Made by a program: the position numbers and the translations under genes. From positions 1 to 21,893 of IMG/VR virus record IMGVR_UViG_3300017741_000064: a stretch of DNA of 21,893 nucleotides; one strand, given 5' to 3'. Under the pieces are notes generated by a model. It was given only the letters and a program-made list of their open reading frames with translations, made no database searches and was not told where the DNA came from. Shown piece by piece: positions 1 through 21,893 of the stretch. Position 1 is the first letter of the stretch; each line of letters starts with the position of its first letter. The stretch is from a virus.

Positions 1-256
1 GGTCTACACGATCGATCCGGGAGCGGCTACCGCTCGGACCGTCTCTGGATTCTTCATCAAGTGCGGAAGCGGGACCGTCACGGCAACCCTGAAGAACGGA
101 TCCGATACCGTCAAGGCAGCGAGCGTCTCGACGTCGAGCGGTGATCAGTCGAGCCTTGCGAATACCTCCGTCTCGGCGAACGGCGTGATCTCGATCACGC
201 TCTCTTCGAACTCGTCTGCGACCGACGTTATCTTCGCCGTGGAATTTACCGAATGA
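1..256 (+). CDS. Partial virion fibre-like protein (C-terminal 84 residues)
   Basis: An open frame enters from the left edge, reads from base 2 and ends at the TGA at 254-256. The visible part is Thr/Ser/Gly/Val-rich with alternating hydrophobic residues (GFFIKCGSGTVTATLKNG, then NGVISITLSSNSSATD), typical of a beta-sandwich at the C-terminus of phage tail- or head-fibre proteins. No catalytic motif is visible. The stop overlaps the ATG of the next gene (ATGA), so the two are probably translated together. Its place before the terminase block suggests the end of another virion-protein operon. The N-terminus lies outside the window, so exact function cannot be given; the structural-protein assignment is by composition and fold style only. 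Confidence 0.6.
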   Translation, partial: VYTIDPGAATARTVSGFFIKCGSGTVTATLKNGSDTVKAASVSTSSGDQSSLANTSVSANGVISITLSSNSSATDVIFAVEFTE

Positions 257-717
257 GTCCGCCGTCTCGATGGCTCTTCTTCCCTGCTCCGGTTTCCAGC
301 GGAGGAGCGAAACTCGTCATCACCGGAACGGCGACGGCGGATCTCTCTGCTCGGACATCGACCGGCGTCTCTTCATGGGCGAAGTCCGGAGACGACGCGG
401 CGGACTTCCTCGAATATCCGCATACGGCGGTTCGGGCTGGCGCCGCGTATATGGAAATCCTCTTCAAGGTCGATACCGGAGAGACGTACTCGAACGCCGG
501 AGACTTCGAGTCGGCGGTGACGATGGTCTCCGGCACAAGTTCCTTCGAGGTCGGCGGTAACACGTTCCCGCATACGAGCGTGACGCATACGCACGGCTCG
601 GACTCTGGAACGATCATCCGCGTGCGATTCAATGCGGCCTCGTCTGCCGTGACAACTTTCCGAAACCTCCTCGCGGCAGGAGATGCCATCGAGATCACAA
701 TGAACTGGACCACCTGA
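253..717 (+). CDS. Putative small virion structural protein, unknown
   Basis: This 154-residue protein starts at an ATG that overlaps the previous stop by 4 nt. The sequence is rich in Ser, Thr, Gly, Ala and Val with short beta-strand-like stretches (GAKLVITGTATADL, FLEYPHTAVRAGAAYMEILF, IIRVRF, DAIEITMNW). It carries a His/Thr patch (HTSVTHTHG) at about residues 107-115. No signal peptide, membrane segment or known enzymatic motif is seen. I do not recognise the family. Composition and coupling to a fibre-like gene upstream suggest a small appendage or decoration protein. The codon use matches neighbouring real genes, which is why this frame is preferred to overlapping minus-strand frames. 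Confidence 0.6.
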   Translation: MSPPSRWLFFPAPVSSGGAKLVITGTATADLSARTSTGVSSWAKSGDDAADFLEYPHTAVRAGAAYMEILFKVDTGETYSNAGDFESAVTMVSGTSSFEVGGNTFPHTSVTHTHGSDSGTIIRVRFNAASSAVTTFRNLLAAGDAIEITMNWTT

Positions 718-718
718 C

Positions 719-934
719 ATGAACACGATTCACCAATTCGCTGCCATCACGAAGAACCTGAGCGGCGTGTCTGCGAACCTCGTCGATCTTGCGTTCAACT
801 ACAAGGAGATCGCCCCTCGGACGGATCTCGACGTCGCACACATCGACCTCCTGGTCGCACAGGCTCAAGCGATGATCGATGCCGCCGAAGGACTGAAGGC
901 GATTGCGTACGAACCGACCGAGGGTGGCGACTGA
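719..934 (+). CDS. Small helical protein, unknown
   Basis: This 71-residue protein begins one base after the preceding TGA. It appears mostly alpha-helical (LVDLAFNYKEI, DVAHIDLLVAQAQAMIDAAEG) with an acidic, flexible end. The size and helicity recall small phage accessory proteins, but no family is recognised. It lies between two virion-like genes and in the same frame as the dockerin gene that follows, separated by the TGA at 932-934 and 30 nt without an alternative start. A readthrough fusion is therefore formally possible but unlikely, because the next gene has its own G-rich ribosome binding site. Function is unknown. Confidence 0.55.
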   Translation: MNTIHQFAAITKNLSGVSANLVDLAFNYKEIAPRTDLDVAHIDLLVAQAQAMIDAAEGLKAIAYEPTEGGD

Positions 935-964
935 CTCGAACGACGTTCGGGAATCGGGGGAACC

Positions 965-1489
965 ATGGAGGACTGCCCGCCTGTGCTGGTGCCGTTCGTC
1001 GTCGATCGTCAACTCGTCGATGGTCTGCTCTTCTCTTCGGGGAGCGTGCAGACCGACACGAGGAGGGTCGACGTCGAGTACGTCGACAATCGGTTCTCGC
1101 TCGGTCCGACTCTCTGGATCGATGGACTTGCGACCCTGAAGAACCGTCGAGACGTTCAAGCGTTGGTGAAATATCGAAACGCGGTTCCTCTCGATCCTTC
1201 GTTCGTCGTCGAGATCCCGATCGACTCCCCCGCCTGCCTCGAAGGAGATCGCATCGTCGGGTACTGGGAAGCCTCGATCCCTGCTGGAGACTCGGTCTCG
1301 ATCTCGATCTCGTGGTCGGTTCTGGTCTTCGACCTTGCGGACCTGAATCGTGACGGATACGTTGACGCCATCGACCTCGGATTCTTCTTGGTCGAGTGGG
1401 GAGATCCGGACTCGATAGCCGACTTCAACTTCGACGGCGTCGTCGACGGTATCGACCTCGGACTCTTCTTCGAAAGGTGGACCGGATGA
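965..1489 (+). CDS. Dockerin-type repeat protein
   Basis: This 174-residue protein has an N-terminal region of about 120 residues that I do not recognise and a C-terminal pair of dockerin type I-like calcium-loop repeats. Repeat 1 runs from D126 (DLNRDGYVDAID, ligands D126, N128, D130, D137) and repeat 2 from D153 (DFNFDGVVDGID, ligands D153, N155, D157, D164). Both are followed by the LG(F/L)F...W pattern. Type I dockerins bind cohesins, and this exact style is common at the ends of extracellular Planctomycetota proteins. There is no signal peptide, so a virion-attached role fits better than secretion. A GGGGGA motif sits a few bases before the ATG. The stop overlaps the ParB gene start (ATGA). 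It could be a virion adhesin that docks on host cohesin-like surface proteins, or cargo acquired from the host. Confidence 0.75.
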   Translation: MEDCPPVLVPFVVDRQLVDGLLFSSGSVQTDTRRVDVEYVDNRFSLGPTLWIDGLATLKNRRDVQALVKYRNAVPLDPSFVVEIPIDSPACLEGDRIVGYWEASIPAGDSVSISISWSVLVFDLADLNRDGYVDAIDLGFFLVEWGDPDSIADFNFDGVVDGIDLGLFFERWTG

Positions 1490-2247
1490 GAACCGAGACC
1501 GTACCGATCGACGAGCCGACTCCCGATCCGGCCAACGCAAGGAAGCACGACGAACGGAACCTCGAAGCAATCCGCGACAGTCTCCGTGCCTTCGGTCAGC
1601 AGAAACCGATTGTGATGGATTCTCGAGGGATCGTCGTCGCAGGTAACGGCACCCTGGAAGCAGCGAAGCGACTCGGATGGACCGAGATCGCAGTCGTTCG
1701 AACCGATCTCGATCCGACGCAGGCTACGGCGTTCGGCATCGCAGACAATCGGACCGCCGAACTAGCCGAGTGGGACGACGACGTCCTGCGGTCTCTGCTC
1801 GACTCGATGGACGAGGAGACTCGAGACCTGCTTCACTTCAGCGAAGACGATCTCGACGACCTCGTCGAGCAGGCAAGCAGGACCGAGGGAGCCGACGGAA
1901 CGTATACGACGAAGATCGAGGCGCCGATCTACGAGATCACCGGGGAAAAGCCGGAGGTATCCGCCCTGGTCGACCGAACGAAGGCGGACCAGTTGCTCGA
2001 GGAGATCGAACGTGCCGGACTTCCGGAGGACGTCTCGAAATTCCTGCGGGTTGCTGCGGAACGTCATGCCGTCTTCGACTTCCGTCGCATCGCAGAGTTC
2101 TACGCTCATGCCGACGAACCGACGCAGGGACTCATGGAGAGATCCGCCCTCGTGATCATCGACTTCGACAAGGCAATCGAAAACGGGTTCGTGCGAGTCT
2201 CGGATCAAATCGCCGACTTCGTCGAGATGGAGCGCGACGATGCGTGA
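1486..2247 (+). CDS. ParB/Srx-fold nuclease-like protein, phage modification type
   Basis: This is a 253-residue protein. Residues about 5-90 form a ParB/sulfiredoxin-like N-terminal domain: NARKHDERNLEAIRDSLRAF is followed by the motif GNGT (53-56), replacing the classical GERR box, then LEAAKRLGW. The central part is acidic. The C-terminal part (about 150-253) contains a helical region ending ALVIIDFDKAIENGF, which I remember from phage ParB-domain proteins encoded next to terminases. The ParB fold binds CTP/ATP or cuts DNA in various family members; the phage members are repeatedly found with DNA base-modification genes. The ATG at 1486 was chosen because it overlaps the previous stop (ATGA); a longer in-frame reading would run inside the dockerin gene. 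It overlaps the glycosyltransferase gene by 8 nt. Exact activity is not shown by the sequence. Confidence 0.82.
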   Translation: MRTETVPIDEPTPDPANARKHDERNLEAIRDSLRAFGQQKPIVMDSRGIVVAGNGTLEAAKRLGWTEIAVVRTDLDPTQATAFGIADNRTAELAEWDDDVLRSLLDSMDEETRDLLHFSEDDLDDLVEQASRTEGADGTYTTKIEAPIYEITGEKPEVSALVDRTKADQLLEEIERAGLPEDVSKFLRVAAERHAVFDFRRIAEFYAHADEPTQGLMERSALVIIDFDKAIENGFVRVSDQIADFVEMERDDA

Positions 2248-3106
2248 CGACTTCGTGGCGTTGATCCTTAGTCACGGCCGACCTGACCGAGTCGAGACCT
2301 ACAAGGCGATGCGAGCGGCTGGCTATACAGGACCGATCCGCATCCTGGTCGACGACGAAGACGAAACGGTCGACGAGTACCACAAGCGATATCCGGGAGA
2401 GGTCGTCGTCTTCTCGAAGAAGGAGATCGAGCCGACGTTCGATACCGGCGACAACTTTCAGAACAAGCGGGGCGTGATCGTCTACGCGAGGAACGCGTCG
2501 AGAGCAGTCGTGAAAGAACTCGGCTTCCGTTACTTCATCCAACTGGACGACGACTACACCGGATTCTACTATCGATACTCGCGGTCCCTCGAATATGGCT
2601 CGTATGGAATCCGGCGGACGATGGATCTCCTTCTCGAGTCCATGGTCGAATTCCTCTCGACGACGCCAAGCCGGACGGTCGCAATCAGTCAAGGCGGCGA
2701 TCACATCGGCGGGCAAAAGAAGAAATTCGGACTCAAGCGGAAGGCGATGAACACGTTCGTGCTCGACGTCGAACGGCCGCTCGACTTCTTCGGTCGCATC
2801 AACGAGGACGTGAATACCTACGTGACCGATGGACGGAGAGGGGAACTCTTCTTCACGATCGAGAATGCGCAGATCCGTCAACTCGTAACGCAGTCGAATG
2901 CGGCAGGCATGACCGACGTATACGTCGAGGGTGGTACCTACCTGAAGACCTTCTATTCGGTTCTCTATGCTCCGTCCGCCGTCAAGGTCTCGACGCTCTC
3001 CGACCCTCGGTCTCCTCGGCTTCGCATTCACCACTCGATCAACTGGAACGCGACCGCCCCGAAGATCATCCGACAATCAGTTCGCAAGCCTCGGACTGCT
3101 CCGTGA
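2240..3106 (+). CDS. TAGT-like DNA glycosyltransferase (TET/JBP-associated family)
   Basis: This 288-residue protein has the layout of the phage TET-associated glycosyltransferase family, which is related to the C-terminal part of GREB1. An N-terminal Rossmann-like strand carries LSHGRP (10-15). ILVDDEDE follows at 35-42, then a DxD-type nucleotide-sugar/metal motif LDDDYTGFYYR (102-112), AISQGGDHIGG (148-158), KRKAMNTF (166-173), GRINEDVNTY (185-194) and TQSNAAGMTD (217-226). Comparative genomics of phage base hypermodification places such enzymes after TET/JBP dioxygenases, adding sugars to hydroxymethylated pyrimidines. No dioxygenase, cytosine methyltransferase or hydroxymethylase lies in this window, so the substrate base and sugar are unknown. 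It overlaps ParB by 8 nt and the terminase by 4 nt, which implies co-translation with the packaging motor. Confidence 0.82.
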   Translation: MRDDFVALILSHGRPDRVETYKAMRAAGYTGPIRILVDDEDETVDEYHKRYPGEVVVFSKKEIEPTFDTGDNFQNKRGVIVYARNASRAVVKELGFRYFIQLDDDYTGFYYRYSRSLEYGSYGIRRTMDLLLESMVEFLSTTPSRTVAISQGGDHIGGQKKKFGLKRKAMNTFVLDVERPLDFFGRINEDVNTYVTDGRRGELFFTIENAQIRQLVTQSNAAGMTDVYVEGGTYLKTFYSVLYAPSAVKVSTLSDPRSPRLRIHHSINWNATAPKIIRQSVRKPRTAP

Positions 3107-4287
3107 TCCTTCAGATCGAACCGATCGAGGACGCCTTGCACGAAGGTCAACTCCTCGTGCTGCGGGCTGCGGCTCGGTTCAACGTGTTGGAGTGCGGACG
3201 TCGATTCGGAAAGACGCATCTCGGGATACAACTAGCAATCGACCGAGCAGTCGACGGAGCCGAGGTCGGGTGGTTCGCTCCGACCTACCGCTACCTGGCA
3301 GATCCGTGGAGAGCAATCGAGAAGGCTCTCGCCCCTGCAATCCTCCGAGCCGACAAGGTCGAGCGTCGATTCGAACTGGTCACCGGAGGGTCTATAGATT
3401 TCTGGTCGCTCGACTCGGTCGATGCCGGTCGCGGTCGGCGGTACGACCGGATCGTGATCGATGAAGCGGGGATCGTTCGAGACCTCGGACCTGCGTGGCA
3501 GGAAACGCTGCGGGCCACCCTGGCCGATCGTCGGGGCGATGCGTGGTTCCTCGGAACTCCGAAGGGGCGATCGTTCTTTCATCGCTGCTTCGAAAAGGGA
3601 CAGATCGGCGAAGGAGGATGGAAGTCGTGGAGGCTCCCGACGACCTCCAATCCGACGATATCTCCCGAGGAGATCGAGTCGGCTAGGCAGGAACTACCGG
3701 CGATGGTCTTTGAGCAGGAGTTTCTAGGGATCCCCGCGGATGACGGAGGGAACCCGTTCGGACTCGACTCGATCTCGGCTTGCGTTGGGGAGATGTCGAC
3801 CGATCCGGTAGTCGCCTATGGCATCGACCTTGCCAAAAGCGTCGACTGGACGGTCGTCTGCGGTCTTGACAAGGACGGGAGGGTCGCTCGTCTCGAGAGG
3901 TGGCAGGGTCCGTGGTCGGAGACCTCGAGGCGAATCGAAGCGATGACGGACGACGTGCCGACCCTGATCGATTCGACCGGAGTAGGCGACCCGATTGTTG
4001 AGTCCTTGCAAAGGAAGCGACCGAGGGTCGAGGGATTCAAGTTCTCGGCGACCTCAAAACAGCAACTGATGGAGGGACTCGCCTCGGGATTTCAGACCAG
4101 ACGCGTCACGATTCCCGACGGATGGCTACGTGTCGAGTGCGACACATTCGAATATACCTACACGCGGACCGGCGTTCGATACGAAGCGCCGTCCGGCATG
4201 CACGACGATGGCGTCTGCGCCCTGGCACTCGCCGTTCGTTGCCTGGATGTGAACTCCCGGACCGACTTCGACTTCCGGATCCTCTGA
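3103..4287 (+). CDS. terL: Terminase large subunit
   Basis: This 394-residue protein is the ATPase-nuclease that packages phage DNA into the prohead. The ATPase half shows a Q-like HEGQ (13-16), Walker A CGRRFGKTHL (31-40), Walker B IVIDEAG (117-123) with catalytic E121, and the coupling motif LGTPKG (150-155). The RNase H-like nuclease half shows YGIDLAKSVDW (239-249, D242), LIDSTGVGD (288-296, D290) and a final HDD (367-369), the expected acidic triad. Length is normal for compact terminases. The GTG at 3103 was chosen because it overlaps the upstream TGA (GTGA), a device used repeatedly here. The portal gene follows after 3 nt. No small terminase is recognisable nearby. Confidence 0.95.
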   Translation: MILQIEPIEDALHEGQLLVLRAAARFNVLECGRRFGKTHLGIQLAIDRAVDGAEVGWFAPTYRYLADPWRAIEKALAPAILRADKVERRFELVTGGSIDFWSLDSVDAGRGRRYDRIVIDEAGIVRDLGPAWQETLRATLADRRGDAWFLGTPKGRSFFHRCFEKGQIGEGGWKSWRLPTTSNPTISPEEIESARQELPAMVFEQEFLGIPADDGGNPFGLDSISACVGEMSTDPVVAYGIDLAKSVDWTVVCGLDKDGRVARLERWQGPWSETSRRIEAMTDDVPTLIDSTGVGDPIVESLQRKRPRVEGFKFSATSKQQLMEGLASGFQTRRVTIPDGWLRVECDTFEYTYTRTGVRYEAPSGMHDDGVCALALAVRCLDVNSRTDFDFRIL

Positions 4288-4290
4288 CCT

Positions 4291-7200
4291 ATGCCGATTT
4301 CCGACCTCTTCGGATTGCTCCAAAAGCAGCAGACGACGCCCGACAAGTATCTCGCCTCGAGCGTGAACGTCGTAGCAACTGGACAGCACGGAGCCGCCCG
4401 TGCTCCGTTCTCGCAGGATCGAGGTATCCGGGCGTTCCGATCGTGGGTCTACGCTGCCTCGACGATCAACGCCAACGCAGTCGCGTCCCTCCCTCTCCGT
4501 CTCTATGCGAAGAAGGATGAGACGTCGAGCCGGACTCGGTCAATCCCTCGGCATCGAAAAGCGTACCTCCTCGGAGATCAGACGAACGACGTCCGACCGT
4601 CCTCGACCGTCATTCGCAAGGCGGTCAACTATGGAAACGAGATGGAGGAGGTCGTCGGATCTCATCCGGTCACCGATCTTCTCTCGACTGCGAATCCGTT
4701 CCTCAACGGCTTCGACTTGACAGTCCTGCGAATCCTCTATGGCGAACTGACCGGCAACGCATATCTCCACCCGGTCGTCGACGAGGCTTCCGGTCTACCT
4801 GGAGAACTGTGGCCGCTGGCTCCGCAGTACGTCGAGGTGATTCCCGACGAAGAGGAGTTCATCGCGGGATATTTGTACGGGATCGATGCGCAGAAAAAGC
4901 AGGTGTTCGAGACCGACGAGGTGATCCACTTCCGTCGACCGAATCCGGCGAATCTCTTTTACGGTCTAGGAAAGGTCGAAGCAGCGTTCGGATCGATTCA
5001 GGCGAACCAAGCGCTGCACGAGATGGATCTATCGACGTTCGAGAACTCCGCTCGACCAGACTACGCAGTGGTTGTGAAGGGGAACTCGAGCGGCGATCAG
5101 TTGGATCGATTCCAGCAGCAGGTGGAGAACCGACTGCGGGGAACTCGGAAGGATGGATCCTTCATCACCGTCACCGGCGACGTGCAATTCACACCGCTCA
5201 ACTTCCCGCCGAAGGATCTCGCCGGTCGAGAGGAGATCGTCGAGGAGATCGCAGCAGTGTTCGGCGTGCCGGTGACCATGCTCAAGGCTAACGATCCGAA
5301 CCTCGCGTCCGCCTCGACCGGCTTCGCTCAATGGAGGGAAGGGACGATCCTTCCTCTCTGTCGCATGGACGAGGAGGAACTGAATCAGTCGCTCCTACCG
5401 CTCTTCGGTCTCGAGGATACGCACTGTCTGGCGTACGATAATCCCGTGCCGTCGGACAAGGCTTTCGAACTCTCCGAGCGTCAGACCGCCGTGGCTGGCG
5501 GCTGGCGGACTCCGAACGAGGCAAGGATGGAAGAGGGGCGGGAGCCGGTCGAAGAGGACATGGCGGATCGCCTGCTCGTCAACGGTCAACCGCTCGGAGG
5601 TATGGACCCTCTCGCCGGAGGACTCGGAGCCGACATCGATTCGGATATCGAGATCAGCAGTCCGGAGCCTGACCCGATCCGCGAAGCCGCGTCCCTCCTG
5701 GAATCCACGAAGGCTCTCGAAAGGTTGATCGTCGAGACCGGCGACCATCTCGAGACCGTGAAGGATCTACAGAGTCTCGGACTCTCTCGAAAGGATGCCG
5801 ATCGACTGGCAAAGAAGAGAGGCGGAAAGAACGTCGTAGTGCGAAGGTCCGACGACCTGTACGACACGAAGGAAGAGGCGGAGGCGGTTGCGACTGCGAT
5901 CGGCTGCTCGGGATCCCATACGCACGAAGTCGACGGACAGACGCGGTTCATGCCTTGCGAACGCATGGAGGACTACTCGACGATCACCGGCGAGAGGCAT
6001 CGAGACGACGAGGATCTCGACCTCGTAGCAGACAAGGCGATCGCCGATGTCGACCTGCAACCTACGGAAGGGATGGCAGCGCTTGCCGAACGAGGTCTCC
6101 GCCTGCGAGAAGAATACGGACGAGGCGGGACCGAGGTAGGCGTCGCCCGTGCTCGAGATATAAAGAATCGAGAGAACCTCTCCCCGGAGACGGTCGGGAG
6201 AATGGCGAACTTTTTCTCGAGGCATCGCGTCGACCTGGACGCTCCAGCAGCAAAGCCGAACCACGAAGAGTACCCGTCCGCAGGCGTTGTCGCGTGGCTC
6301 CTGTGGGGAGGAGACCCCGCGAATCCAGACGAAGCCGGTGTCGCCTGGTCGGCTCGAAAACTCGAGGAGATCGAGAGGGCGAGAGAGAAGGCGAAGGACG
6401 ATCCCTCGACTCCTGCAAAGCCGAGCGAGAGGATCGAGGGATCCGACGAGAATCCAGAAGGGTCGGCGTCGGGAACTCGAGGCGGTATCGAGATCAGCGA
6501 CGAGACCGAAAAGGGTCTCCGCAACAAGGTCGACGAACACAACGAGGAACACGGAGACAAGAAGGGAAAGAAAGTCAACCTCGGCATGCTCAAGGCGGTG
6601 TTCCGTCGAGGAGCCGGAGCGTTCTCGTCGTCGCATCGCCCTGGTATGACTCGGCAGCAGTGGAGCATGGGAAGAGTGAACGCCTTCCTGTATCTGGTCC
6701 GGAACGGTCGACCGGAGAATGCGAAGTATGTGGGCGACAATGACCTGCTGCCGAAGGACCATCCGAAGTATGCGGAGAAGGAGAAGGAGTCGAAGTCCTG
6801 CTCCTGCTGCGAGACAAAGTCAATCGGAGACCCGAAGGCGTACCACTGGCCGGAGGAAACGAAGTGGTATCGACTCTCGATCGAAGGTCTGCTCGACGAC
6901 TACGACCGACTGCGACCGAAGTCGAAGGACGGGAAGCCGGACGCCGACGACGATATCCGGAGCGGGGAGAGGAAGACTCCTGCGATGGCGATTGCTTCCC
7001 TCTCGGAGAAAATGCTCGACGCAGTCAGGGAAGAGATCGAGAAGAGCCTGAAGGGACAACGCAAGAAGGCGTTCGATCGCGACGGAGAGATCCGGGCGAT
7101 CCTCGAAGGACTCGCCGAAGGTCGCAAGACTTTCATGGCGGGATTGATTAGAGAGTACGAACGTGCTGCAATCGGAGGAGGATCCACCGGCGCTGCTCGT

Positions 7201-7728
7201 CTGAACGAGATACTGGAGCAGGCAGGGCGAGAACTGATCTCGGCTCCCGGAACGTCGAAGCGTCTCGACGCCATGCTCGCAAAGAGAGCCGCAGCGATGG
7301 CGGAGTCGGTCGTCGTCGATACGGTCACGAACTTCCTCAAGGACATACCGGAAGACGAGGCGTTCGATCTCGGTGCCGAGATCAATCGACTCGAGAGCAG
7401 TCTAGGAGTGACGCGGAAGAGAGCCGAGACGATCGCAAGAACTGAATCGGCCAACGCGTACCACGAAGGTCAGATCGACGTCTGGAAAGAGACCGGCGGG
7501 GTCCAGCAGAAAAAGTTCCTGGTCGCCCCTGGAGCGTGCGAATTCTGCAAGGCAGTAGACAAGAAGTACGGAGCAGAGGGAACCGCCATCGGCATTGATG
7601 AGCCGATGGTGAAGGCGGGTCAGGTCATCCGGGGAACCGACGGCGGTTCATTCAAGCCGGGGAAGACTTCGCAAGGCATCGTTCACCCGAACTGCCGGTG
7701 CGACTTCGTGCCGGTCCTGGAATTGTGA
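4291..7728 (+). CDS. Portal protein fused to MuF-like minor head domain, with extra linker domains
   Basis: At 1145 residues this is about two to three times a normal portal. Residues 1 to about 440 form an HK97-type portal (WVYAASTINANAVASLPLRLY, GELTGNAYLHP, FGVPVTMLKANDPN). The C-terminus (about 1030-1145) is a MuF-like head-morphogenesis domain: ARTESANAYHEGQ from 1049, a CxxC at C1083/C1086 and the closing HPNCRC at 1132-1137, a zinc-type pattern. Between them lie three compact segments that I recognise as recurring phage domains of unknown function: a His/Cys segment at about 510-565 (CSGSHTHEVDG, then FMPC); a segment at about 591-697 with LSPETVGRMANFFSRH and AWLLWGGDP; and a segment at about 738-828 with LRNKVDEHNEEHGD, VFRRGAGAF and NDLLPKDHP. 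A Cys cluster CSCC is at 837-840. The terminal A of its stop begins the protease ATG. Confidence 0.88.
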   Translation: MPISDLFGLLQKQQTTPDKYLASSVNVVATGQHGAARAPFSQDRGIRAFRSWVYAASTINANAVASLPLRLYAKKDETSSRTRSIPRHRKAYLLGDQTNDVRPSSTVIRKAVNYGNEMEEVVGSHPVTDLLSTANPFLNGFDLTVLRILYGELTGNAYLHPVVDEASGLPGELWPLAPQYVEVIPDEEEFIAGYLYGIDAQKKQVFETDEVIHFRRPNPANLFYGLGKVEAAFGSIQANQALHEMDLSTFENSARPDYAVVVKGNSSGDQLDRFQQQVENRLRGTRKDGSFITVTGDVQFTPLNFPPKDLAGREEIVEEIAAVFGVPVTMLKANDPNLASASTGFAQWREGTILPLCRMDEEELNQSLLPLFGLEDTHCLAYDNPVPSDKAFELSERQTAVAGGWRTPNEARMEEGREPVEEDMADRLLVNGQPLGGMDPLAGGLGADIDSDIEISSPEPDPIREAASLLESTKALERLIVETGDHLETVKDLQSLGLSRKDADRLAKKRGGKNVVVRRSDDLYDTKEEAEAVATAIGCSGSHTHEVDGQTRFMPCERMEDYSTITGERHRDDEDLDLVADKAIADVDLQPTEGMAALAERGLRLREEYGRGGTEVGVARARDIKNRENLSPETVGRMANFFSRHRVDLDAPAAKPNHEEYPSAGVVAWLLWGGDPANPDEAGVAWSARKLEEIERAREKAKDDPSTPAKPSERIEGSDENPEGSASGTRGGIEISDETEKGLRNKVDEHNEEHGDKKGKKVNLGMLKAVFRRGAGAFSSSHRPGMTRQQWSMGRVNAFLYLVRNGRPENAKYVGDNDLLPKDHPKYAEKEKESKSCSCCETKSIGDPKAYHWPEETKWYRLSIEGLLDDYDRLRPKSKDGKPDADDDIRSGERKTPAMAIASLSEKMLDAVREEIEKSLKGQRKKAFDRDGEIRAILEGLAEGRKTFMAGLIREYERAAIGGGSTGAARLNEILEQAGRELISAPGTSKRLDAMLAKRAAAMAESVVVDTVTNFLKDIPEDEAFDLGAEINRLESSLGVTRKRAETIARTESANAYHEGQIDVWKETGGVQQKKFLVAPGACEFCKAVDKKYGAEGTAIGIDEPMVKAGQVIRGTDGGSFKPGKTSQGIVHPNCRCDFVPVLEL

Positions 7729-8348
7729 TGAGCAACGAGACACGCAGCAAAACTCTGGCGGCAACCGTCGAGAAGAACGGTCCATCGATCGAGGCAACGA
7801 TCACCACGGAGACCATCGACCGAGACGGCGAGGTGCTGATCTCCGACGGCATGAACGCAAGCGAGTTCGAGAAGAATCCGGTGGTGTTCTATAACCACGA
7901 TTATGCGCAGCCGGTCGGCAAGATCGCAGACCTGCGTAGGTCGAAGGGGAAGATCGACGCGACGATCGAGTTCGCGCAACGCCCGGAAGGGTTCGAGGGT
8001 CCGTACTTTCCTGAATTCGTGGAGTCCCTTGTCGAGCAGGGAATCGTGAAGGGAATCTCGGTCGGATTCGTTCCGATGCCGGGAGGAGTCCGGAAGGCAT
8101 CGACGAAGGATCGGGAGGACTACGGCGACGACGTCCGACAGGTCTTCTCGAAATGGAAACTCCTAGAGGTCTCGATCGCTCCTCTTCCTGCGAACGGAAC
8201 TGCTCTCGTCTCTGCGGTACGGAAGGGGATCGTGAACTCTGGAGACGTCGTCCGATGGATCGATCCAGACTTCTACGAGAGGAACGTGATCGAGATCATC
8301 GTGCCGAAGCACGGCAGACTTTCGAGACTACTAGCGTCGAGATCCTGA
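7728..8348 (+). CDS. HK97-type prohead maturation protease
   Basis: This 206-residue serine protease of the U9/S78 (herpes assemblin-like) group processes the scaffold region of the capsid protein during head maturation. Family motifs are visible: TIDRDGEVL (29-37), VVFYNHDYAQPVGK (52-65) with catalytic H57, GISVGF (109-114) with nucleophile S111, and LLEVSIAPLP (144-153) with E146. The ATG at 7728 overlaps the portal stop (TGATG); an in-frame start 30 nt earlier lies inside the portal gene and is less likely. Its placement between portal and capsid is standard. Length is typical for a stand-alone protease. The C-terminal tail after about residue 165 is not conserved in memory and may be a linker to the prohead interior. 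Confidence 0.93.
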   Translation: MSNETRSKTLAATVEKNGPSIEATITTETIDRDGEVLISDGMNASEFEKNPVVFYNHDYAQPVGKIADLRRSKGKIDATIEFAQRPEGFEGPYFPEFVESLVEQGIVKGISVGFVPMPGGVRKASTKDREDYGDDVRQVFSKWKLLEVSIAPLPANGTALVSAVRKGIVNSGDVVRWIDPDFYERNVIEIIVPKHGRLSRLLASRS

Positions 8349-8436
8349 AGTCGGACGGATGGTCGCAAGGACCGAGCCGAGTGCGGACGGACATCGAGAC
8401 GGATTCACACATCACCTAATCAGAAAGGATTCGCCA

Positions 8437-9822
8437 ATGCGAATCGTGACTCTCAACGAGGTCGAAAAGGATCTCCAGAACCTCGCCGATCAGGTCGGCG
8501 AGGAAGGCTTCATCAAGGCAAAGGCTCTCTATCTCGAGAAGGTCGCCGTGACGAAGGAAGACGGTACGCCCCTGTCCGCCGATGACGTCGAAATCGTGCT
8601 CATGCCGAAGGCGGAAGAGGAAGAGGAAGAGAAGGCGGCCGACGACGACGAGAAGGAAGACAAGGCGGAAGACGACGACGACGAGAAGAACGTCGCCCCG
8701 AAGTCGATCCGGATCGAGACTCGCAAGAAGGCAGTCGCAACGGCTGCTCGGATGGCTCGACCTTCGATCGCAAAGCCTCGTCCGTTCTCTCGTCTGAAGA
8801 ACTTCCGAGACGACCACAACGGCGAAGCAGTCGAGAAGGCTCTGCGGTTCGGTCACTGGCTCATGGCGGGACGAGGCATTCGAAAGAGCCTCAACTATTG
8901 CGACCGTCACGGAATCGAAGTCAAGGCGCACACCGAAGGCGTCAACTCCGCCGGTGGCTTCCTGGTCCCGGATGAGTTCGAGACCGAACTGATCTCCCTG
9001 CGAGAGCAGCACGGCGTATTCCGTCGCAATGCTCGAGTCCGTCCGATGGCTAGCGATACCCTTCGCATCCCTCGTCGGTCTGCAACCCTGACCGCTTCCT
9101 TCGTCGGAGAGGCTTCGGCCGCAGCCGAGTCCACGCAGACCTTCGAGCAGGTGACCATGGTCGCCAAGAAGGTCGCCGTGCTCACGACCGTCTCGAACGA
9201 ACTCGCCGAGGATGCCTTCGTCAACCTGGCCGACGACGTCGCAGGAGAAATCGCCTACGCCTTCGCCAAGTTGGAAGACCAGTGCGGATTCATCGGGGAT
9301 GGCACCTCGACCTATGGCGGAATCGTGGGCGTCTCGAGTTCCGTCGGCGCTGCCGGTACGACCGATTCGGATTCCGGAGCGTTCGGTGCCTTGAGCGCTG
9401 CCGACCTCACGTCCTTCATGTCGAAGTTGCCTGCGTACGCCCATACGCCCAGCACCAAGTTCTACATGCACAAGACCGTGTTCCACGCGAACTTCGAAGA
9501 CTTGATGATCTCATCCGGTGGTGCGAACGCGACCGAGATCCGGAACGGTGGCCAGCCCACCATCATGGGATACCCGGTCGAGTTCGTGCAGGTCATGCCG
9601 TCGACCTATACGAACGGACAGGTGGAAGCGCTCTTCGGCGACCTCTCCCTGGCTGCTTCGTTCGGAGATCGTCGGTCGACTACGGTGCAAGTTTCCGATT
9701 CAGCGCTCAACGCGTTCGAGCAGGACGAACTCGCCATCCGTGGTACCGAGCGATTCGACATCAATGTCCACGACGCTGGCGATGGAGACAACGCCGGACC
9801 GATCGTGTCGCTCCTCTCCTGA
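8437..9822 (+). CDS. Major capsid protein, HK97 fold
   Basis: This 461-residue protein has an N-terminal delta/scaffold region (1 to about 165) followed by the HK97-type shell domain. The shell begins near VNSAGGFLVPDEFETEL (169-185) and continues with RNARVRPMASDTLRIPRR, the spine-strand-like VAVLTTVSNELAEDA and the E-loop/P-domain region. The scaffold region holds an extremely acidic stretch (59-84, mostly Glu, Asp and Lys) and then a basic patch. The protease encoded upstream probably removes it. The ATG at 8437 was chosen because AGAAAGGA lies 7 nt upstream; an ATG at 8359 in the same frame has no such site and would add 26 unlikely residues. The 88-nt gap before it holds no gene. A tetraloop hairpin follows the stop, as expected for a very highly expressed gene. 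Confidence 0.94.
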   Translation: MRIVTLNEVEKDLQNLADQVGEEGFIKAKALYLEKVAVTKEDGTPLSADDVEIVLMPKAEEEEEEKAADDDEKEDKAEDDDDEKNVAPKSIRIETRKKAVATAARMARPSIAKPRPFSRLKNFRDDHNGEAVEKALRFGHWLMAGRGIRKSLNYCDRHGIEVKAHTEGVNSAGGFLVPDEFETELISLREQHGVFRRNARVRPMASDTLRIPRRSATLTASFVGEASAAAESTQTFEQVTMVAKKVAVLTTVSNELAEDAFVNLADDVAGEIAYAFAKLEDQCGFIGDGTSTYGGIVGVSSSVGAAGTTDSDSGAFGALSAADLTSFMSKLPAYAHTPSTKFYMHKTVFHANFEDLMISSGGANATEIRNGGQPTIMGYPVEFVQVMPSTYTNGQVEALFGDLSLAASFGDRRSTTVQVSDSALNAFEQDELAIRGTERFDINVHDAGDGDNAGPIVSLLS

Positions 9823-14108: not shown

Positions 14109-14317
14109 CCGAGGGGCGGGACTGGCACGGAGAGTCGGCACATATTGCTCACGCTCTCCCCGGTCTCGGGAATCCTCTCGATCTCCCGGTCGACGACTTC
14201 GACGAATTCGGGAGGCAAGTGATCGAGCATTATCGAAGGCAGTCCGGAACGTCCGCCGCTAGTTCGTCGGGTCACGACCACCGCTCATTCGTCGAGTCTC
14301 AAATGAGGAATTTGTGA
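14102..14317 (+). CDS. Tail assembly chaperone, gpT-like frameshift extension
   Basis: This -1 frame segment has no convincing independent start. It continues the chaperone through the slippery site. The added 71 residues begin RIAEGRDWHGESAHIAHALP and continue with NPLDLPVDDFDEFGRQVIEHYRR, protein-like in contrast to the Arg/Ser-rich reading of the same frame upstream of the slip site. The end is Ser/His-rich. In lambda the T part of gpGT recruits tail tube protein to the tape measure complex; the same is inferred here. Its TGA (14315-14317) touches the ATG of the tape measure with no spacing. Confidence 0.82.
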   Translation, partial: RIAEGRDWHGESAHIAHALPGLGNPLDLPVDDFDEFGRQVIEHYRRQSGTSAASSSGHDHRSFVESQMRNL

Positions 14318-15511
14318 ATGGCAGATTTCAACCTCGAAGTGGAGATGACCGCGAGGACGGAGGAACTCGATGCGGCGTTCAAGAAAGCGCAAGCCGGAGC
14401 GGACAAAACGTCGAAGGGACTGGACAAAGCCGGAACGTCTGGAAAGTCAGGACTCGGGAAGATCGCCGTCGCAGGCGCTGCCGTCATCGCAAGTATCGGC
14501 GCCCTGGAAATCGGTGTCGGTCTGGCCGGTGCTGCGATGTCCCTTTTCTCTGGCGACTCTGAGAAGGTCCGAGCCTCCCTCGAAGGTCTTCCGATCGTCG
14601 GCGGTCTCATCTCGAAGTTCTATCAGTTCGGCGAAGCGTTGGAATACGCATCGCAGGAGGCTCGAGACCAGCGAGAGTCCCTCGTCCTCCTGGAAAACGC
14701 GGCAAAGGATCTATCCACTGCGATGGGAATTCTGAGCGAGCAGATCGCCGACCTGGAAACGCTCGGCAAGTTAGACGGAAAGGGAGAACTCGAGATCGCC
14801 GTCGAGGTCTACGCCAAGAAAAGCGAACTCATCCGCAAGGAAAGAAAAGAACGAATCGAGGCAATCGAGGCGGACTACCTTGCAAGACGAACTGCCATCG
14901 AGGAGCAGAATCTAGGATCAGAACGGGAACTCGAACTCTTCGGAGAACTGCGAGACGCTCGGTACGCGGAACGAAACGAAGCAACCGCGGCGATGGAACG
15001 CGACCTAGAGATCCTAGAAAAGCAACTGACCGCAACGAAGGAGGCGCACGACGAGGCGGAGGAGTTGAAACTACAGGCAATCGAAGCAGCAGCCGACGCG
15101 CAGGAGGTAGCAGACCGAGAAGCCTTCAAGCAGCAGATGGAAGACGAGGCGTTGCGGCTCGCTGCACAGATGAGCGGAATAGCAAAGGCGGAGCAGGCAA
15201 GAAAAGAAGCAGCGAAGAAGGTTGCCGAAGAGGAGAAGGCAAGGCAGGAAGAACTCGCAGCAGCCGAAGCAGCAGCCGCCGAAAAAATGGCAGAGATCGA
15301 AAAGAAGATCAAGGAGGAAACCGCGTCCGCAGAGTCATCGGTGCAAGGCATGACCGGATCCTTCGGAACCGCTGGCGGATCATTTACGACCGGCGTGAAA
15401 GCGCAACTCGATAATTCTAAGATCCTCAACAAGTTGAGCGAGGAATCGCGGGACTTCCTTGCGACGATCGTGCAGAACACCGCAGCACTAGGGAGGATCG
15501 GTTTTGCCTGA
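14318..15511 (+). CDS. Tape measure protein (short)
   Basis: This 397-residue protein follows the chaperones, the defining position of the tape measure. The N-terminus (1-45) is helical and charged. A hydrophobic Gly/Ala segment (about 47-82, KIAVAGAAVIASIGALEIGV) could insert in the host membrane at injection. Residues about 95-345 are long Glu/Lys/Ala-rich coiled coil (for example ERKERIEAIEADYLARR, KKVAEEEKARQEELAAAEA). The C-terminus (FLATIVQNTAALGRIGFA) is typical of the family. GAGG is 9 nt before the ATG. Using about 0.15 nm per residue, the tail would be near 60 nm, short for a siphophage. It overlaps the next gene by 8 nt. Confidence 0.87.
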   Translation: MADFNLEVEMTARTEELDAAFKKAQAGADKTSKGLDKAGTSGKSGLGKIAVAGAAVIASIGALEIGVGLAGAAMSLFSGDSEKVRASLEGLPIVGGLISKFYQFGEALEYASQEARDQRESLVLLENAAKDLSTAMGILSEQIADLETLGKLDGKGELEIAVEVYAKKSELIRKERKERIEAIEADYLARRTAIEEQNLGSERELELFGELRDARYAERNEATAAMERDLEILEKQLTATKEAHDEAEELKLQAIEAAADAQEVADREAFKQQMEDEALRLAAQMSGIAKAEQARKEAAKKVAEEEKARQEELAAAEAAAAEKMAEIEKKIKEETASAESSVQGMTGSFGTAGGSFTTGVKAQLDNSKILNKLSEESRDFLATIVQNTAALGRIGFA

Positions 15512-16334: not shown

Positions 16335-16335
16335 C

Positions 16336-17483: not shown

Positions 17484-17489
17484 TCGCCC

Positions 17490-17831
17490 ATGCCATCGAA
17501 CCGATACACCAAAGGTCGACTCGCCGCATCCCTCGAGGAGATATTCCGAGCAGATCGCGAGTCGGTCGTGACTGCGATCGTCGTCTGCAATACCTCATCC
17601 TCGAATCGAACCTTTGAGATTCAACACGTACCGGCCGACGAGTCTGCGTCCGACGATCACTGCCTCTTTCACGACTCGATAATCCGAGCGAACGTCACGA
17701 CCATCATCGATACGCCTGTCTTCCTCTCCCCTGGTGACGCAATCTTCGCAGGCGCTTCGGCTGCTGCAGCGGTTGCGTTCTCGATCTACGTCCTCGACTA
17801 CGCCTCATACCTGAATGCGAGAGGAGCCTAG
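17490..17831 (+). CDS. Small beta-sandwich virion protein
   Basis: This 113-residue protein has a sequence style widely present in phage fibres and appendages: SVVTAIVVCNTSSSNRTFEI (about 25-44), then SIIRANVTTIIDTPVFLSPG, GDAIFAGASAAAAVAFSIYV. It fits a single jelly-roll-like domain in which strands alternate with Ser/Thr/Asn-rich turns. It is 6 nt after the previous gene. A weak ribosome site is visible. It probably forms part of the tail tip or a fibre, since genes on both sides are virion-like, but no specific receptor function can be read. Confidence 0.62.
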   Translation: MPSNRYTKGRLAASLEEIFRADRESVVTAIVVCNTSSSNRTFEIQHVPADESASDDHCLFHDSIIRANVTTIIDTPVFLSPGDAIFAGASAAAAVAFSIYVLDYASYLNARGA

Positions 17832-17833
17832 TC

Positions 17834-18901
17834 GTGGGCGAATACGCTGCGGTGTGCTGCTGCGGGGAAGAACCGCCGACCTGCGAATGCGATACCGCAA
17901 CCGACTGGCTGCGCCTTTCGGTCTTCTATCAGGGGAGGCGATCGAGTCAGGTCTACAACGAGACCTGCGAAGGACCGGGAACGTGCATCATCTCCGACAT
18001 GCCTCGCATCACTGCGAGCGGCGACCTGCGGACGAACTATATCGAGACCACGTTCTGGCTCAAGTGCGAAAACACGCAGTCGGTCGGACAGGCGTTCGTG
18101 CATAATTCGCAGACGGCAGACGCCGAGCATCCGACGACGCTCGACGTTTCAGAGATATGGCGCAACACCTATCATCGCCTCAACAAGGACCGAACCGGAT
18201 GCGATGGAGGAGTCTGCTACGCGTACGACTTCGCCCACTACCTCGGAGGTACGCAACGGACCATCGACTCGAACTCTCCGGACCCTGCGTACCCGAACGA
18301 AAGACCGGGGATCGATGCGCGGACCTATATCATCTCGCCAATCGGTGGAGTGATCTACTTCGACGAACGAATCCTCGAAGGCATCCGCGTCACCATTCCG
18401 GACTTCGAGCCGGATCCGTCGAAGCATTACCGCATCCTGGAAGTCCAGATATTTCCGGTCTGTCCGTTCCCGGTGAACGTCGTTGCGCAGACATATATCG
18501 GATGCGACTTCTTCAGCAGCCAAAACGATTTCTATGGAAACGGTCCGGAAGAGGTCACCGGATTGTATGGCGTCGTGGGCTGCTCGTCGCAGGCGGTATC
18601 GAATATCACCGAGGTCTACGAGTTGGAAGAGTGCGACGTCTACGAACAAGGCGAGAGGATCTGGAAGGGCGTGCAGAACTATATCGGTTTCCCTCCTGAC
18701 TGCTTCGACTCGAGTTCTCCGATCTATACGGCGCTCCCGTTTCAGTACGAAGAAAACGACCCGCCAGACCCGCCGACCTATTGCGGTTTCCTCCCGAGTT
18801 GCTGCGGGTTCGGTGGGCCTGGAGCGACCGTCACCGGCACGACATCGTCGGACGTCTACGAGATCAACGCAGGAGTCACATCGTGGCAGATCGAGAACTA
18901 G
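17834..18901 (+). CDS. Cys-rich tail-associated protein, unknown
   Basis: This 355-residue protein starts at a GTG 2 nt after the previous stop. It has 18 cysteines by my count, clustered at the ends: VCCCGEEPPTCEC near the start, ETCEGPGTC and GCDGGVC in the first third, and YCGFLPSCCGFGG near the C-terminus. Aromatic and Thr-rich beta strands make up most of the rest. So many cysteines are unusual in a phage structural protein made in a reducing cytoplasm; metal binding or disulfides formed after release are the two options. No catalytic motif was found. Its end overlaps the next gene by 19 nt. The location in the tail-tip cluster suggests a receptor-facing component. Confidence 0.6.
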   Translation: MGEYAAVCCCGEEPPTCECDTATDWLRLSVFYQGRRSSQVYNETCEGPGTCIISDMPRITASGDLRTNYIETTFWLKCENTQSVGQAFVHNSQTADAEHPTTLDVSEIWRNTYHRLNKDRTGCDGGVCYAYDFAHYLGGTQRTIDSNSPDPAYPNERPGIDARTYIISPIGGVIYFDERILEGIRVTIPDFEPDPSKHYRILEVQIFPVCPFPVNVVAQTYIGCDFFSSQNDFYGNGPEEVTGLYGVVGCSSQAVSNITEVYELEECDVYEQGERIWKGVQNYIGFPPDCFDSSSPIYTALPFQYEENDPPDPPTYCGFLPSCCGFGGPGATVTGTTSSDVYEINAGVTSWQIEN

Positions 18902-19143
18902 CGTGCATCTACTTCGATGCGGAGAGAGGTTGCGGACTGAAGGTCGTCGAGGGTATACCGACGGCTGCGGACTGCTCGAATTGTTCGAAGTATGACGGAC
19001 CCGCCCGAGGTCTCGGCGACCACGTTCATACTGTCGCGAAGACTCTCGGGATCGATCGAGTCGTGAAGAAGGTCACCCGAGGAAAATGCGGCTGCGAAGA
19101 ACGGCGAAACAGGATGAATCGACAGTATCCCTCGAAGGACTAA
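18883..19143 (+). CDS. Small Cys-motif phage protein (CxxC...CxC), probable metal binder
   Basis: This 86-residue protein starts at GTG 18883, with AGGAG 7 nt upstream inside the end of the previous gene. Cysteines are C8, C17, C31 and C34 (CSNC), and C69 and C71 (CGCEERRNRMN). The C-terminal CGC-x-x-RR-x-x-(M/L)N motif, preceded by IDRVVKKV, recurs in many small phage proteins and fits a zinc- or other metal-binding knuckle. It directly follows the large Cys-rich tail protein and overlaps it by 19 nt, so the two may be partners. No membrane or signal segment is present. Function of this motif is not established to my knowledge. Confidence 0.72.
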   Translation: MADRELACIYFDAERGCGLKVVEGIPTAADCSNCSKYDGPARGLGDHVHTVAKTLGIDRVVKKVTRGKCGCEERRNRMNRQYPSKD

Positions 19144-19146
19144 TCC

Positions 19147-20529
19147 ATGGCGATCGTATACAACACAATTTTCGGAAGGCTCGGTCGGCTCATGAAGCAC
19201 GCCGAAGTCGTTCGAACCTATCAAGCAACCCTCGACGCGCAGTACACGGATACCTCGGGAGAGTTCACAGGAGCCGACGCCGAGAAGATCGCCGTGGTCG
19301 CTCGCAACCTGGAAAGCCGCAAGGTTCAAGCGACCGCAACTTCGCAGGATCTTCAGGCGGCAGCCGTGAAGACCCTGATCGACATGGCGGATGCGGACTT
19401 CACGCTCGTCGACAAGACGCTCGAAGGCGCTCTTCGAGAACTCATCCGACAGATGGTCGCAGATTCGAAGACGGTCGACGGCAACTCGATCACGATCGGA
19501 TCGGTCGCGGCAGGAGGATCGAACGTAGGAAACGGAACTTTCCTCGTCTCGGTCGTCGCTCCGATCGTCGACAGATACGGGAACCGTCCTGGAAATCTCC
19601 AACTCCAGAACGTAAAGGACGAGACGCTCACGGCTCGATGCCAAAGGGACGCGACGTCGAGGATCATCGACGAGCAGGGAGAGCAGTTCACCGTGTTCGG
19701 TCAAAGGAAGGTGACGCAGTTTGACGAGGACTGGCCGACCGGATCGGGTACTCGAGCAACCGTCACCGCCGTCTCGTCGCAGAGAGACGGAGGGAGAGGA
19801 CCGACAGAGAACGTCACCTCGAATGGAGACTTTGAGGACTTCACTTCGAACGCTCCGAACCGATGGACGATCGAGTCGGGTATCGCAGGCACCCATATCT
19901 TCGCCGCCGGTTCCGGACACAACGGCTCGAACGCGCTCCGCCTGGTCGGAGACGGATCGACGACCATCCGCCTATATCAACGACTTCGCAACACCACGGA
20001 GACTATGGGACAGATCAATCCGGATCGCCCGTACTCGATTTCTTTCGCCATCAAATACGCGACGGCTGCTCCGACGGCAACGATCCGAGTCGCAGTCGAG
20101 GATGCGTCGGGAAACCGACTCAACGAATCCGTCGCGACTCGAGAGATGTCGGAGTCGGTGACGAGCGGAGACGTGACGACGTCGTACGTGGTCCATGCGA
20201 ATACCGGATTCAGTCCGACGAACATACCGAAGGGAAGTCGCATCGTCGTGGAGACGACGTCCAACCTTGCCAACACTTCGCAGGTCTTCATCGATGACGT
20301 GACGGTCGCAGAGATGCGTCGACTCGGTCCGGGATCTCCTGCGGTGCAGATCATTCCGGGGTCGACTGCCTTCAGGGTCGGCGACGAGTTCACGCGCACG
20401 ACTGCCAACGCCAACACCGGGGCGATTGCTCTCGAGTTCGATCGATTCTTCGACATGGAGGGTCGCGGACTGGCACTGCCTGCGAACGTAGCAGGCGGGG
20501 AGAACGTCGCGGACTCTCTCGTCTCATGA
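19147..20529 (+). CDS. Adhesin-like virion protein with carbohydrate-binding-type module
   Basis: This 460-residue protein has three parts. Residues 1 to about 215 contain helical stretches (FGRLGRLMKHAEVVRTYQAT, DLQAAAVKTLIDMADADFTL) and a beta region (SITIGSVAAGGSNVGNGTFL). Residues about 222-393 look like a CBM4/9-type galactose-binding jelly roll: it opens with SNGDFEDFTSNAPNRWTIES, contains GHNGSNALRLVGDGSTTIRL and closes with QVFIDDVTVAEM, the usual first and last strands. The C-terminal 65 residues are beta-rich. Such modules in tail proteins bind cell-surface glycans, so this is the best receptor-binding candidate here. AAGGA lies 7 nt before the ATG. The stop overlaps the next ATG (ATGA). 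Confidence 0.72.
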   Translation: MAIVYNTIFGRLGRLMKHAEVVRTYQATLDAQYTDTSGEFTGADAEKIAVVARNLESRKVQATATSQDLQAAAVKTLIDMADADFTLVDKTLEGALRELIRQMVADSKTVDGNSITIGSVAAGGSNVGNGTFLVSVVAPIVDRYGNRPGNLQLQNVKDETLTARCQRDATSRIIDEQGEQFTVFGQRKVTQFDEDWPTGSGTRATVTAVSSQRDGGRGPTENVTSNGDFEDFTSNAPNRWTIESGIAGTHIFAAGSGHNGSNALRLVGDGSTTIRLYQRLRNTTETMGQINPDRPYSISFAIKYATAAPTATIRVAVEDASGNRLNESVATREMSESVTSGDVTTSYVVHANTGFSPTNIPKGSRIVVETTSNLANTSQVFIDDVTVAEMRRLGPGSPAVQIIPGSTAFRVGDEFTRTTANANTGAIALEFDRFFDMEGRGLALPANVAGGENVADSLVS

Positions 20530-20927
20530 CGGATCGCAAAGCAATCCTCGGACGACGTCTCGGAAACGAGAAGGCGATCGAATACTGGGAGACCGGACGC
20601 AATCCCTACCAGCGTGCCGTGCCGGACATCGATTCGCCGGGAGACTCGGAGGTCGAGCAGATTTCTGCGGGCGTCCTGGTCGACCAGATCGAGGAGATCG
20701 ATCGTGACATCGCCATCGCTGGCGTCTTCTCTCCTCAAGGCGAAGTCCTGATCCAACTTCGACGCGGCATCGGCTCGTTTTATACGTTCCTGACTGGAGA
20801 GCGTCCGCCTCGACGTCCGTTCGCAGATGTCGCCAACGCTTTTCCGGAGGGGAGAGAAGAAAACCGCCCCCGCCAACTCGAGAGAGAAGGCGGGGGCGAC
20901 GAACGAAAGGCGAACGGATACGCCTAG
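20526..20927 (+). CDS. Last gene of the late cluster, unknown
   Basis: This 133-residue protein begins at an ATGA overlap with the adhesin-like gene. The middle shows ISAGVLVDQIEEIDRDIAIA (about 46-65), SPQGEVLIQLRRGIGSFYTF and then a polar, Arg/Glu/Gly-rich tail. The tail is encoded across a strong GC stem that serves the minus strand as a terminator, so the last 25 or so residues may reflect RNA constraints rather than protein needs. I recognise no family. Its TAG stop is separated from the stop of the convergent gene by one base. Confidence 0.6.
   Translation: MTDRKAILGRRLGNEKAIEYWETGRNPYQRAVPDIDSPGDSEVEQISAGVLVDQIEEIDRDIAIAGVFSPQGEVLIQLRRGIGSFYTFLTGERPPRRPFADVANAFPEGREENRPRQLEREGGGDERKANGYA
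20865..20898 (-). terminator. Rho-independent terminator for the minus-strand gene
   Basis: CGCCCCCGCC (20865-20874) pairs with GGCGGGGGCG (20889-20898) over 10 bp around a 14-nt loop. On the minus strand the stem is followed by GGTTTTCTTCTC, a suitable U-rich tract; on the plus strand it is followed by ACGAACG, without one. It lies about 30 nt past the minus-strand stop and inside the end of the convergent plus-strand gene. Confidence 0.85.
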
Positions 20928-20928
20928 T

Positions 20929-21333
20929 CTACTCCGAGTCGGTGTCGAGTGATGCGACGTCGATGTGCATCGATCCAGCGAGGCGGATGATCGAGTCGAG
21001 TATCTGCTTGTCGCCATGCCGAAAGGTACGGGCGACGAGCGGCTGGTCGACCAGACCAATACCGCTGGTCAGCATCTCTTCGCGAGTCTTCCGGAACTGC
21101 TTCACGATCTCTTTCTCGACGATGTCCCACCGTCGATAGGAGAGCGGGTCTCCGGCACATTCTCGATAGAGGCGGAACAACTCTCCGAGGGATCGGACGA
21201 CGACGGCGAACGAGTCTGCGACCTTCTCCTGCGCCTCGTCGAAATTGTCGACCATGGTATCTCGCTGGTGATCCGGATCCGGCTCGGATCGGTATGCGGC
21301 GGGGTCGACGTCGTCTTCGAAGTCTTCGGTCAC
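20929..21333 (-). CDS. Minus-strand helical protein, unknown, possibly regulatory
   Basis: This 134-residue protein is the only minus-strand gene. It starts at a GTG with AAAGGA about 5-6 nt upstream and ends one base from the convergent plus-strand stop. The N-terminus is acidic (TEDFEDDVDPAAYRSEPDPD); the rest is helical (NFDEAQEKVADSFAVVVRSL, RWDIVEKEIVKQFRKTREEM, DKQILDSIIRLAGSMHID). No helix-turn-helix signature was recognised. Having its own terminator and facing a control region suggests a separate transcript, perhaps expressed at another time than the virion genes. Codon use equals that of its neighbours. Confidence 0.7.
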   Translation of the reverse strand: MTEDFEDDVDPAAYRSEPDPDHQRDTMVDNFDEAQEKVADSFAVVVRSLGELFRLYRECAGDPLSYRRWDIVEKEIVKQFRKTREEMLTSGIGLVDQPLVARTFRHGDKQILDSIIRLAGSMHIDVASLDTDSE

Positions 21334-21358
21334 GGGTTTCCTTTCGTGCGAGTTTGAG

Positions 21359-21375
21359 TCGAGGACGTTCCTCGA
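21359..21375. repeat. Inverted repeat, candidate operator
   Basis: TCGAGGA (21359-21365) and TCCTCGA (21369-21375) form perfect 7-bp arms around CGT. The element ends 26 nt upstream of the minus-strand GTG start, a suitable place for an operator or a 5'-leader hairpin. Because TCGA is very common in this DNA, part of the symmetry could be chance. Confidence 0.4.
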
Positions 21376-21450
21376 TCCGATGACTGTATCGACAGATCCG
21401 CCAGCGTTCTACAGGAGGAACGAGGATCGCTCCTGCGGCGTTGCAGGAGA

Positions 21451-21475
21451 TCGGGAGGAAGATCGGTCCTCCCGA
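21451..21475. repeat. Inverted repeat with 9-bp arms, candidate operator or hairpin
   Basis: TCGGGAGGA (21451-21459) and TCCTCCCGA (21467-21475) are perfect 9-bp complementary arms separated by 7 nt. It lies in the middle of the divergent control region. No T-run follows on either strand, so a terminator is unlikely; a dimeric repressor site is a reasonable alternative. Confidence 0.5.
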
Positions 21476-21646
21476 CCCTGAGAACGCCCACGCGGACGCC
21501 CTGGTCGCTACCTGGTCGCCGAAAGTTTTCTGCCATTCTCCACGGTTTTCTCCTACGTTACCCCACGACGCATGCCGATCCTGTATATTCAACGGGTCGC
21601 AGGGACTTCCCCTCCGGCAGAAAATTCGAACGAAAGGACCGATCGA

Positions 21647-21893
21647 ATGAGCAACCAGAACCAGACCGACGAAGCCGAGACCCTCGAGACTCCCGGCTTT
21701 CTCCTCCGTCCGATCCGAGAAGAGAGGCAGATCGACGAACTCGTCGAAGGTCTCGAGTCCGTCGGATGGCTCTTCCACTTCGACGATGATCCGTTTGACA
21801 TCGTCTGGAACTGCTCCCCCGCTCCGACCGACGAGCAGAAAGACCAGATCCTTTCGAGAGTCGGAGAGGCTCTCTCCTACGACGAAACCAGAA
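21647..21893 (+). CDS. Partial plus-strand protein (N-terminal 82 residues), unknown
   Basis: This gene starts at the ATG at 21647 with AAAGGA 8 nt upstream and continues past the window edge. The visible part is acidic: SNQNQTDEAETLETPGFLLR, then IREERQIDELVEGLESVGWL, FHFDDDPFDIVWNCSPAPTD and a helix QKDQILSRVGEALSYDE. It is preceded by the control region, so it probably opens a new transcription unit outside the virion cluster. No family is recognised. The ribosome site resembles that of the divergent minus-strand gene (CGAAAGGA in both). Confidence 0.65.
   Translation, partial: MSNQNQTDEAETLETPGFLLRPIREERQIDELVEGLESVGWLFHFDDDPFDIVWNCSPAPTDEQKDQILSRVGEALSYDETR

Follow-up and report, generated by a model that had tools for sequence, protein, structure and literature searches.

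Elimination of the tetranucleotide AGCT from the genome of an uncultured tailed phage, and its recurrence among relatives

The stretch of DNA considered here, termed the window (21,893 bp, its full length), comes from the genome of a tailed phage, to judge by its predicted products, which include a ParB-like protein, TAGT (TET-associated glycosyltransferase), terminase, portal/MuF, prohead protease, HK97 capsid and connector protein. The genes located below all lie on the + strand. A dockerin-like protein with two repeats (965..1489; Pfam PF00404 at the cut-off score) is followed by the ParB-like protein (1486..2247, its start codon being inferred), the predicted TAGT (2240..3106; PF20691 E 3e-28, phrog_842 E 1e-56) and the terminase large subunit (3103..4287), one of the queries for relatives. 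Database matches then identify a portal protein fused to a MuF-like domain (4291..7728) and a prohead protease (7698..8348), with the HK97-type major capsid protein (8359..9822), on which the tree of relatives is based, downstream. A 19.5-kb contig from a second sample derives from the same phage (99.7% identity over 15.65 kb) and adds 3.9 kb upstream. There is no cultured relative, the best capsid matches among 50,697 phage records being less than 30% identical. No integrase or repressor was noticed in the resulting 25.8 kb of genome fragment, most of the early region lying outside it.

The slot between ParB and terminase (1486-4287), which holds TAGT in the window, is variable among relatives. 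Cytosine hypermodification involving TET/JBP and TAGT is known in phages (Burke et al. 2021, PNAS, as cited in PMC11347163), and the TAGT-family protein here resembles such systems in adjoining ParB and terminase. In contrast to those systems, neither a TET/JBP dioxygenase nor a C5-methylase could be recognised in the examined window proteins or the ORFs of the upstream extension (25.8 kb in all), and palindromes containing GpC are still avoided by the phage. In Escherichia and Salmonella phage records, TAGT homologues with about 50% identity lie at a place annotated as ParB-type plus hypothetical protein; these phages are possible laboratory models. The host of the present phage is probably a planctomycete, as suggested by the dockerin-like protein, with counterparts upstream of ParB or terminase in L007, L028, L191 and L194, and by capsid-profile matches in six Planctomycetota genomes. 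In the search for a host by way of prophages, the profile otherwise matched only MAG contigs of several phyla, and no host was assigned.

AGCT does not occur in the window, a count that covers both strands since the word is a palindrome; it is equally missing from the 19.5-kb contig of the second sample. The original prediction had claimed this absence, and had put the number to be expected from composition at about 80, for which calculation gives 79. A symmetrised trinucleotide (second-order) Markov model still expects 42.6 copies. When synonymous codons of the 29 predicted genes were shuffled 1,000 times with proteins and codon usage preserved, 62.4 +/- 5.7 copies resulted (z = -10.9) and never fewer than 46, so the absence is no by-product of amino acid content or codon bias. 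That minimum is far from the near-zero counts that the original prediction had named as speaking against selection, and the selective reading stands. A count of zero against 62.4 is the shortfall, relative to both composition and codon expectation, that is looked for in the elimination of a Type II site.

How the coding sequence achieves this is apparent from its codon choices, and here too the proposal that it actively avoids AGCT where Glu, Lys or Gln precedes Leu is borne out. Before CTN leucine codons, GAA, AAA and CAA are used 27, 7 and 14 times, and GAG, AAG and CAG never, i.e. all 48 such codons end in A, with G-ending forms being the commoner overall. The four instances originally offered, CAGTTG at 1990, AAGTTG at 9268, GAGTTGAAACTA at 15062 and AAGTTA at 14768, are all present and in frame with predicted genes. 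Similarly, GCT is used for none of the 114 Ala codons that follow an A-ending codon, compared with 97 of 578 elsewhere, and AGC never precedes T in the window genes while AGT does so five times.

The avoidance is specific to the word. Eleven of the 12 one-mismatch neighbours of AGCT are at or above codon-shuffle expectation, the exception being the mildly low CGCT (0.72), and AGCC, GGCT, AGCA, AGCG, AGGT and ACCT show no depletion in the window. AACT and AGTT are in excess (1.67 and 1.32 of expectation), as expected if these words absorb avoided AGCT. Avoidance of the broader CviJI-type RGCY was ruled out, with AGCC at 65 versus 64.8 expected (1.00) and GGCT at 82 versus 85.1 (0.96). GGCC is a second, incomplete target, depleted to 21 versus 107 by codon shuffle (0.20) and still present. 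AluI recognises AGCT and HaeIII GGCC, so the window's two depleted words are exactly the recognition sequences of systems of these types, a match by site only. By the same shuffle CGCG (79 versus 164; 0.48) and GCGC (48 versus 89; 0.54) are moderately low and still present; judged by a Markov measure, most close relatives are short of GCGC regardless of their AGCT state, and its depletion therefore looks like a background feature. Some other words are also scarce in the window: TTAA is absent (codon shuffling predicts 11.4, with never fewer than 2 in 1,000 shuffles), as are AGATCT and ACCGGT (about 10 expected of each), and CTNAG occurs nine times versus 77 from dinucleotide frequencies, partly because in-frame TAG is avoided.

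Loci of relatives, retrieved with capsid, TAGT and terminase as queries, show that AGCT state is lineage-specific and nearly all-or-none. Observed versus expected numbers are 0/67, 0/55, 0/50, 0/48, 0/46 and 0/42 in some and 69/72, 29/31 and 36/42 in others, a minority being depleted in part. The capsid tree of 65 rows comprises 15 AGCT-free, 9 low and 41 normal contigs and requires at least nine changes between free and not free, seven of them forced by well-supported branches; several losses of AGCT, or losses and regains, have thus occurred within the phage family. Recent recombination as the source of partial depletion in L017/L178 was rejected, the 13 AGCT sites being scattered over 17 kb.

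Comparison of close relatives reveals the purging site by site. In an alignment of L037 and L042 (84.6% identical over 12.6 kb), none of 22 aligned AGCT sites of the former is kept in the latter, while the control tetramers printed in the comparison are kept at 40-77% (TCGA 83/134, GATC 113/165, ACGT 43/61, CAGC 21/52, AGCA 33/43). From L012 to the window none of 25 aligned AGCT sites is kept, and only 3 of 45 GGCC sites are. In L042 the replacements are AGTT (7), AACT (4), AGAT (3), CGCT (2) and others, and the sites are lost through transitions and transversions alike with the proteins conserved, again as for elimination of Type II sites. A mutational process might be thought to have destroyed AGCT instead, e.g. 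GpC-context deamination of modified cytosine by the phage's TET/TAGT-type pathway, given that the window encodes TAGT and that G-to-A and C-to-T are the commonest AGCT replacements from relatives to the window. This is nevertheless highly improbable: 12 of the 29 changed positions between L037 and L042 are transversions, which argues against deamination alone, other GpC tetramers (AGCC, GGCT, AGCA) are at or above expectation, AGCT is at ordinary levels in most TAGT-bearing contigs, and other AGCT-free phages with a readable slot have Mom or an N6/N4-methylase and no TAGT. The aligned-site losses look like selection against the word, with no single mutational process at work.

With a word counted as eliminated when below 5% of expectation, 48 distinct contigs of the family yield elimination in 17 of 579 palindrome tests versus 3 of 4,770 tests of other tetramers (Fisher p 2.6e-14, a value that overstates the evidence because contigs are not phylogenetically independent); 12 of the 17 are AGCT. 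For comparison, 61 distinct viral contigs sampled through an arbitrary 14-mer (L340-L419) gave 17 of 795 versus 0 of 6,342, GATC being most often eliminated (7/59) and AGCT in 2 of 57. AGCT elimination is consequently over-represented in the family, at 12/46 versus 2/57 (p 0.001, overstated for the same reason). This bias towards palindromes, with near neighbours spared in the window, is what elimination of Type II sites entails. Individual words eliminated in relatives include CCGG in L079, AATT in L042, ACGT in L051 and L058, and GATC in L099.

That AGCT is intolerable for some reason other than restriction, e.g. because of a phage or host DNA-binding protein or a nuclease other than Type II, would fit with no restriction enzyme having been found in the methylase searches described below, and with a few family eliminations being non-palindromic (CCAG in L079 and L062, GCCC in L191). 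It is very unlikely when set against the strength of the palindrome bias and the loss of different palindromes (GATC, ACGT, GGCC, CCGG) by different contigs, as a variety of Type II enzymes would be expected to cause. There is good support for selection against AGCT as a restriction-type palindrome, in that the depletion survives codon-shuffled controls, is AGCT-specific, recurs in relatives, targets palindromes, and is accompanied by purging of aligned sites through mixed transitions and transversions. To this extent the original prediction of restriction pressure holds; its further part, a host lineage with an AGCT-specific system, did not find a counterpart, neither host nor system having been found.

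Some genomes nearly without AGCT do exist among the 392 of Planctomycetota surveyed by counting SSAGCTSS with SSTCGASS as control. In sampled DNA of G285 AGCT is depleted (0/27, 0/11 and 5/25) with most other 4-bp palindromes normal (L279, L295, L296), and this genome is well suited to a search for an AGCT-specific restriction system. In G062 and G185 (L247, L270, L277, L278) AGCT, GGCC, GATC, CATG and GTAC are nearly missing together; both are small planctomycete genomes with many DNA methylase genes. Methylase searches gave many candidates, none assignable to AGCT specificity, and no single methylase family common to AGCT-poor planctomycetes stood out. Positions 1-3417 of L308 (contig C68 of G285) have a C5-methylase match in two separated pieces flanking a nuclease-like ORF, followed by GIY-YIG-like and then Vsr-like ORFs (these three ORFs judged by eye), possibly a rearranged restriction locus.

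These genomes bear on the other explanation raised at the outset, that the host chromosome itself lacks AGCT, due to a long-lived restriction system or a genome-wide force, and that the phage has drifted to host composition. Several Planctomycetota genomes nearly without AGCT, and in particular G285, where most other palindromes are normal, are of the kind that this would require. However, the phage has exactly zero AGCT and the AGCT-poor genomes retain some in most samples; no sampled genome resembles the window in 4-mer profile, the nearest (G172 and G068) being only mildly low in AGCT; and drift to host composition would not single out one tetramer while sparing its neighbours. Such drift is accordingly rated improbable.

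The occupants of the ParB-terminase slot in relatives are also pertinent. In place of TAGT there is a C5-methylase (PF00145) in L007 and L017 and Mom (PF25680) in L030 and L184; the counterpart of the ParB-like gene is fused to an N6/N4 DNA methylase in L012, L018, L035 and L042, with L012 and L018 having this fusion in the slot region. An ATP-binding/acetyltransferase-like ORF was judged by eye to occupy the slot of L191. AGCT-free phages occur with TAGT, with Mom and with N6/N4-methylase. TAGT was discarded as a general cause, since among 20 TAGT loci AGCT is scarce only in the window's phage (L081), L090 and L096/L097. C5-methylase occurs in two close relatives that differ, L007 being AGCT-normal and L017 partly depleted, so that a role for this cassette as AGCT protector is suggestive only; of 78 contigs with this methylase family none has AGCT eliminated, to be read beside a random-sample rate of only 2/57 and with taxonomy as a confounder. 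A broader scheme, in which AGCT restriction is widespread in planctomycetes and has time and again compelled one phage family to purge AGCT altogether or else re-equip the slot (with C5-methylase, ParB-fused N6/N4-methylase, Mom or TAGT), some members combining both, is thinkable and rather doubtful. Were it true, the family would be a natural series of anti-restriction solutions.

For the window itself, elimination of AGCT through selection by an orthodox Type II restriction-modification system of AluI specificity is considered probable. The phage lineage would repeatedly infect cells with a system that cleaves unmethylated AGCT, each copy being a possible double-strand cut on entry, and genomes with fewer sites would survive better until none was left, synonymous codon choices taking up much of the change. 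A further pressure of HaeIII type would act, incompletely, on GGCC. A restriction enzyme is the likely agent behind the absence, its specificity for one site and for palindromes, its recurrence and the site-by-site purging. Bearing against this account are the searches for an AGCT-specific endonuclease or methylase and for a host, which turned up none, the predicted DNA-modifying glycosyltransferase in the window, and the few non-palindromic words, CCAG and GCCC, eliminated in relatives.

Elimination of orthodox Type II sites would be expected mainly in non-temperate phages. Roughly one viral genome in ten has eliminated such sites (Rusinov et al. 2018, PMC6286503), and in that study only slight avoidance of sites is seen in coliphages whose cytosine is hydroxymethylated. 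The present case is like those of Rusinov et al. 2018 in that a short palindrome is removed far beyond what composition dictates, with neighbours spared and in a lineage-specific manner. It is unlike them in the loss or regain of the same site several times within one phage family, in the co-occurrence with a predicted DNA-modifying enzyme, and in being known here from the phage sequence rather than from a host or enzyme. Literature searches turned up nothing on AGCT elimination in phages of planctomycetes. The strategy is one already known; it is unusually complete in the window's phage and recurrent among its relatives.

This uncultured phage group provides a very clean example of restriction-site purging, and the close pairs of AGCT-free and AGCT-bearing phages make the tempo and codon cost of purging measurable. 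An AGCT-specific defence not yet described, probably of planctomycetes, is indicated by the purging, and AGCT state may give a clue, from sequence alone, to the hosts of these phages.
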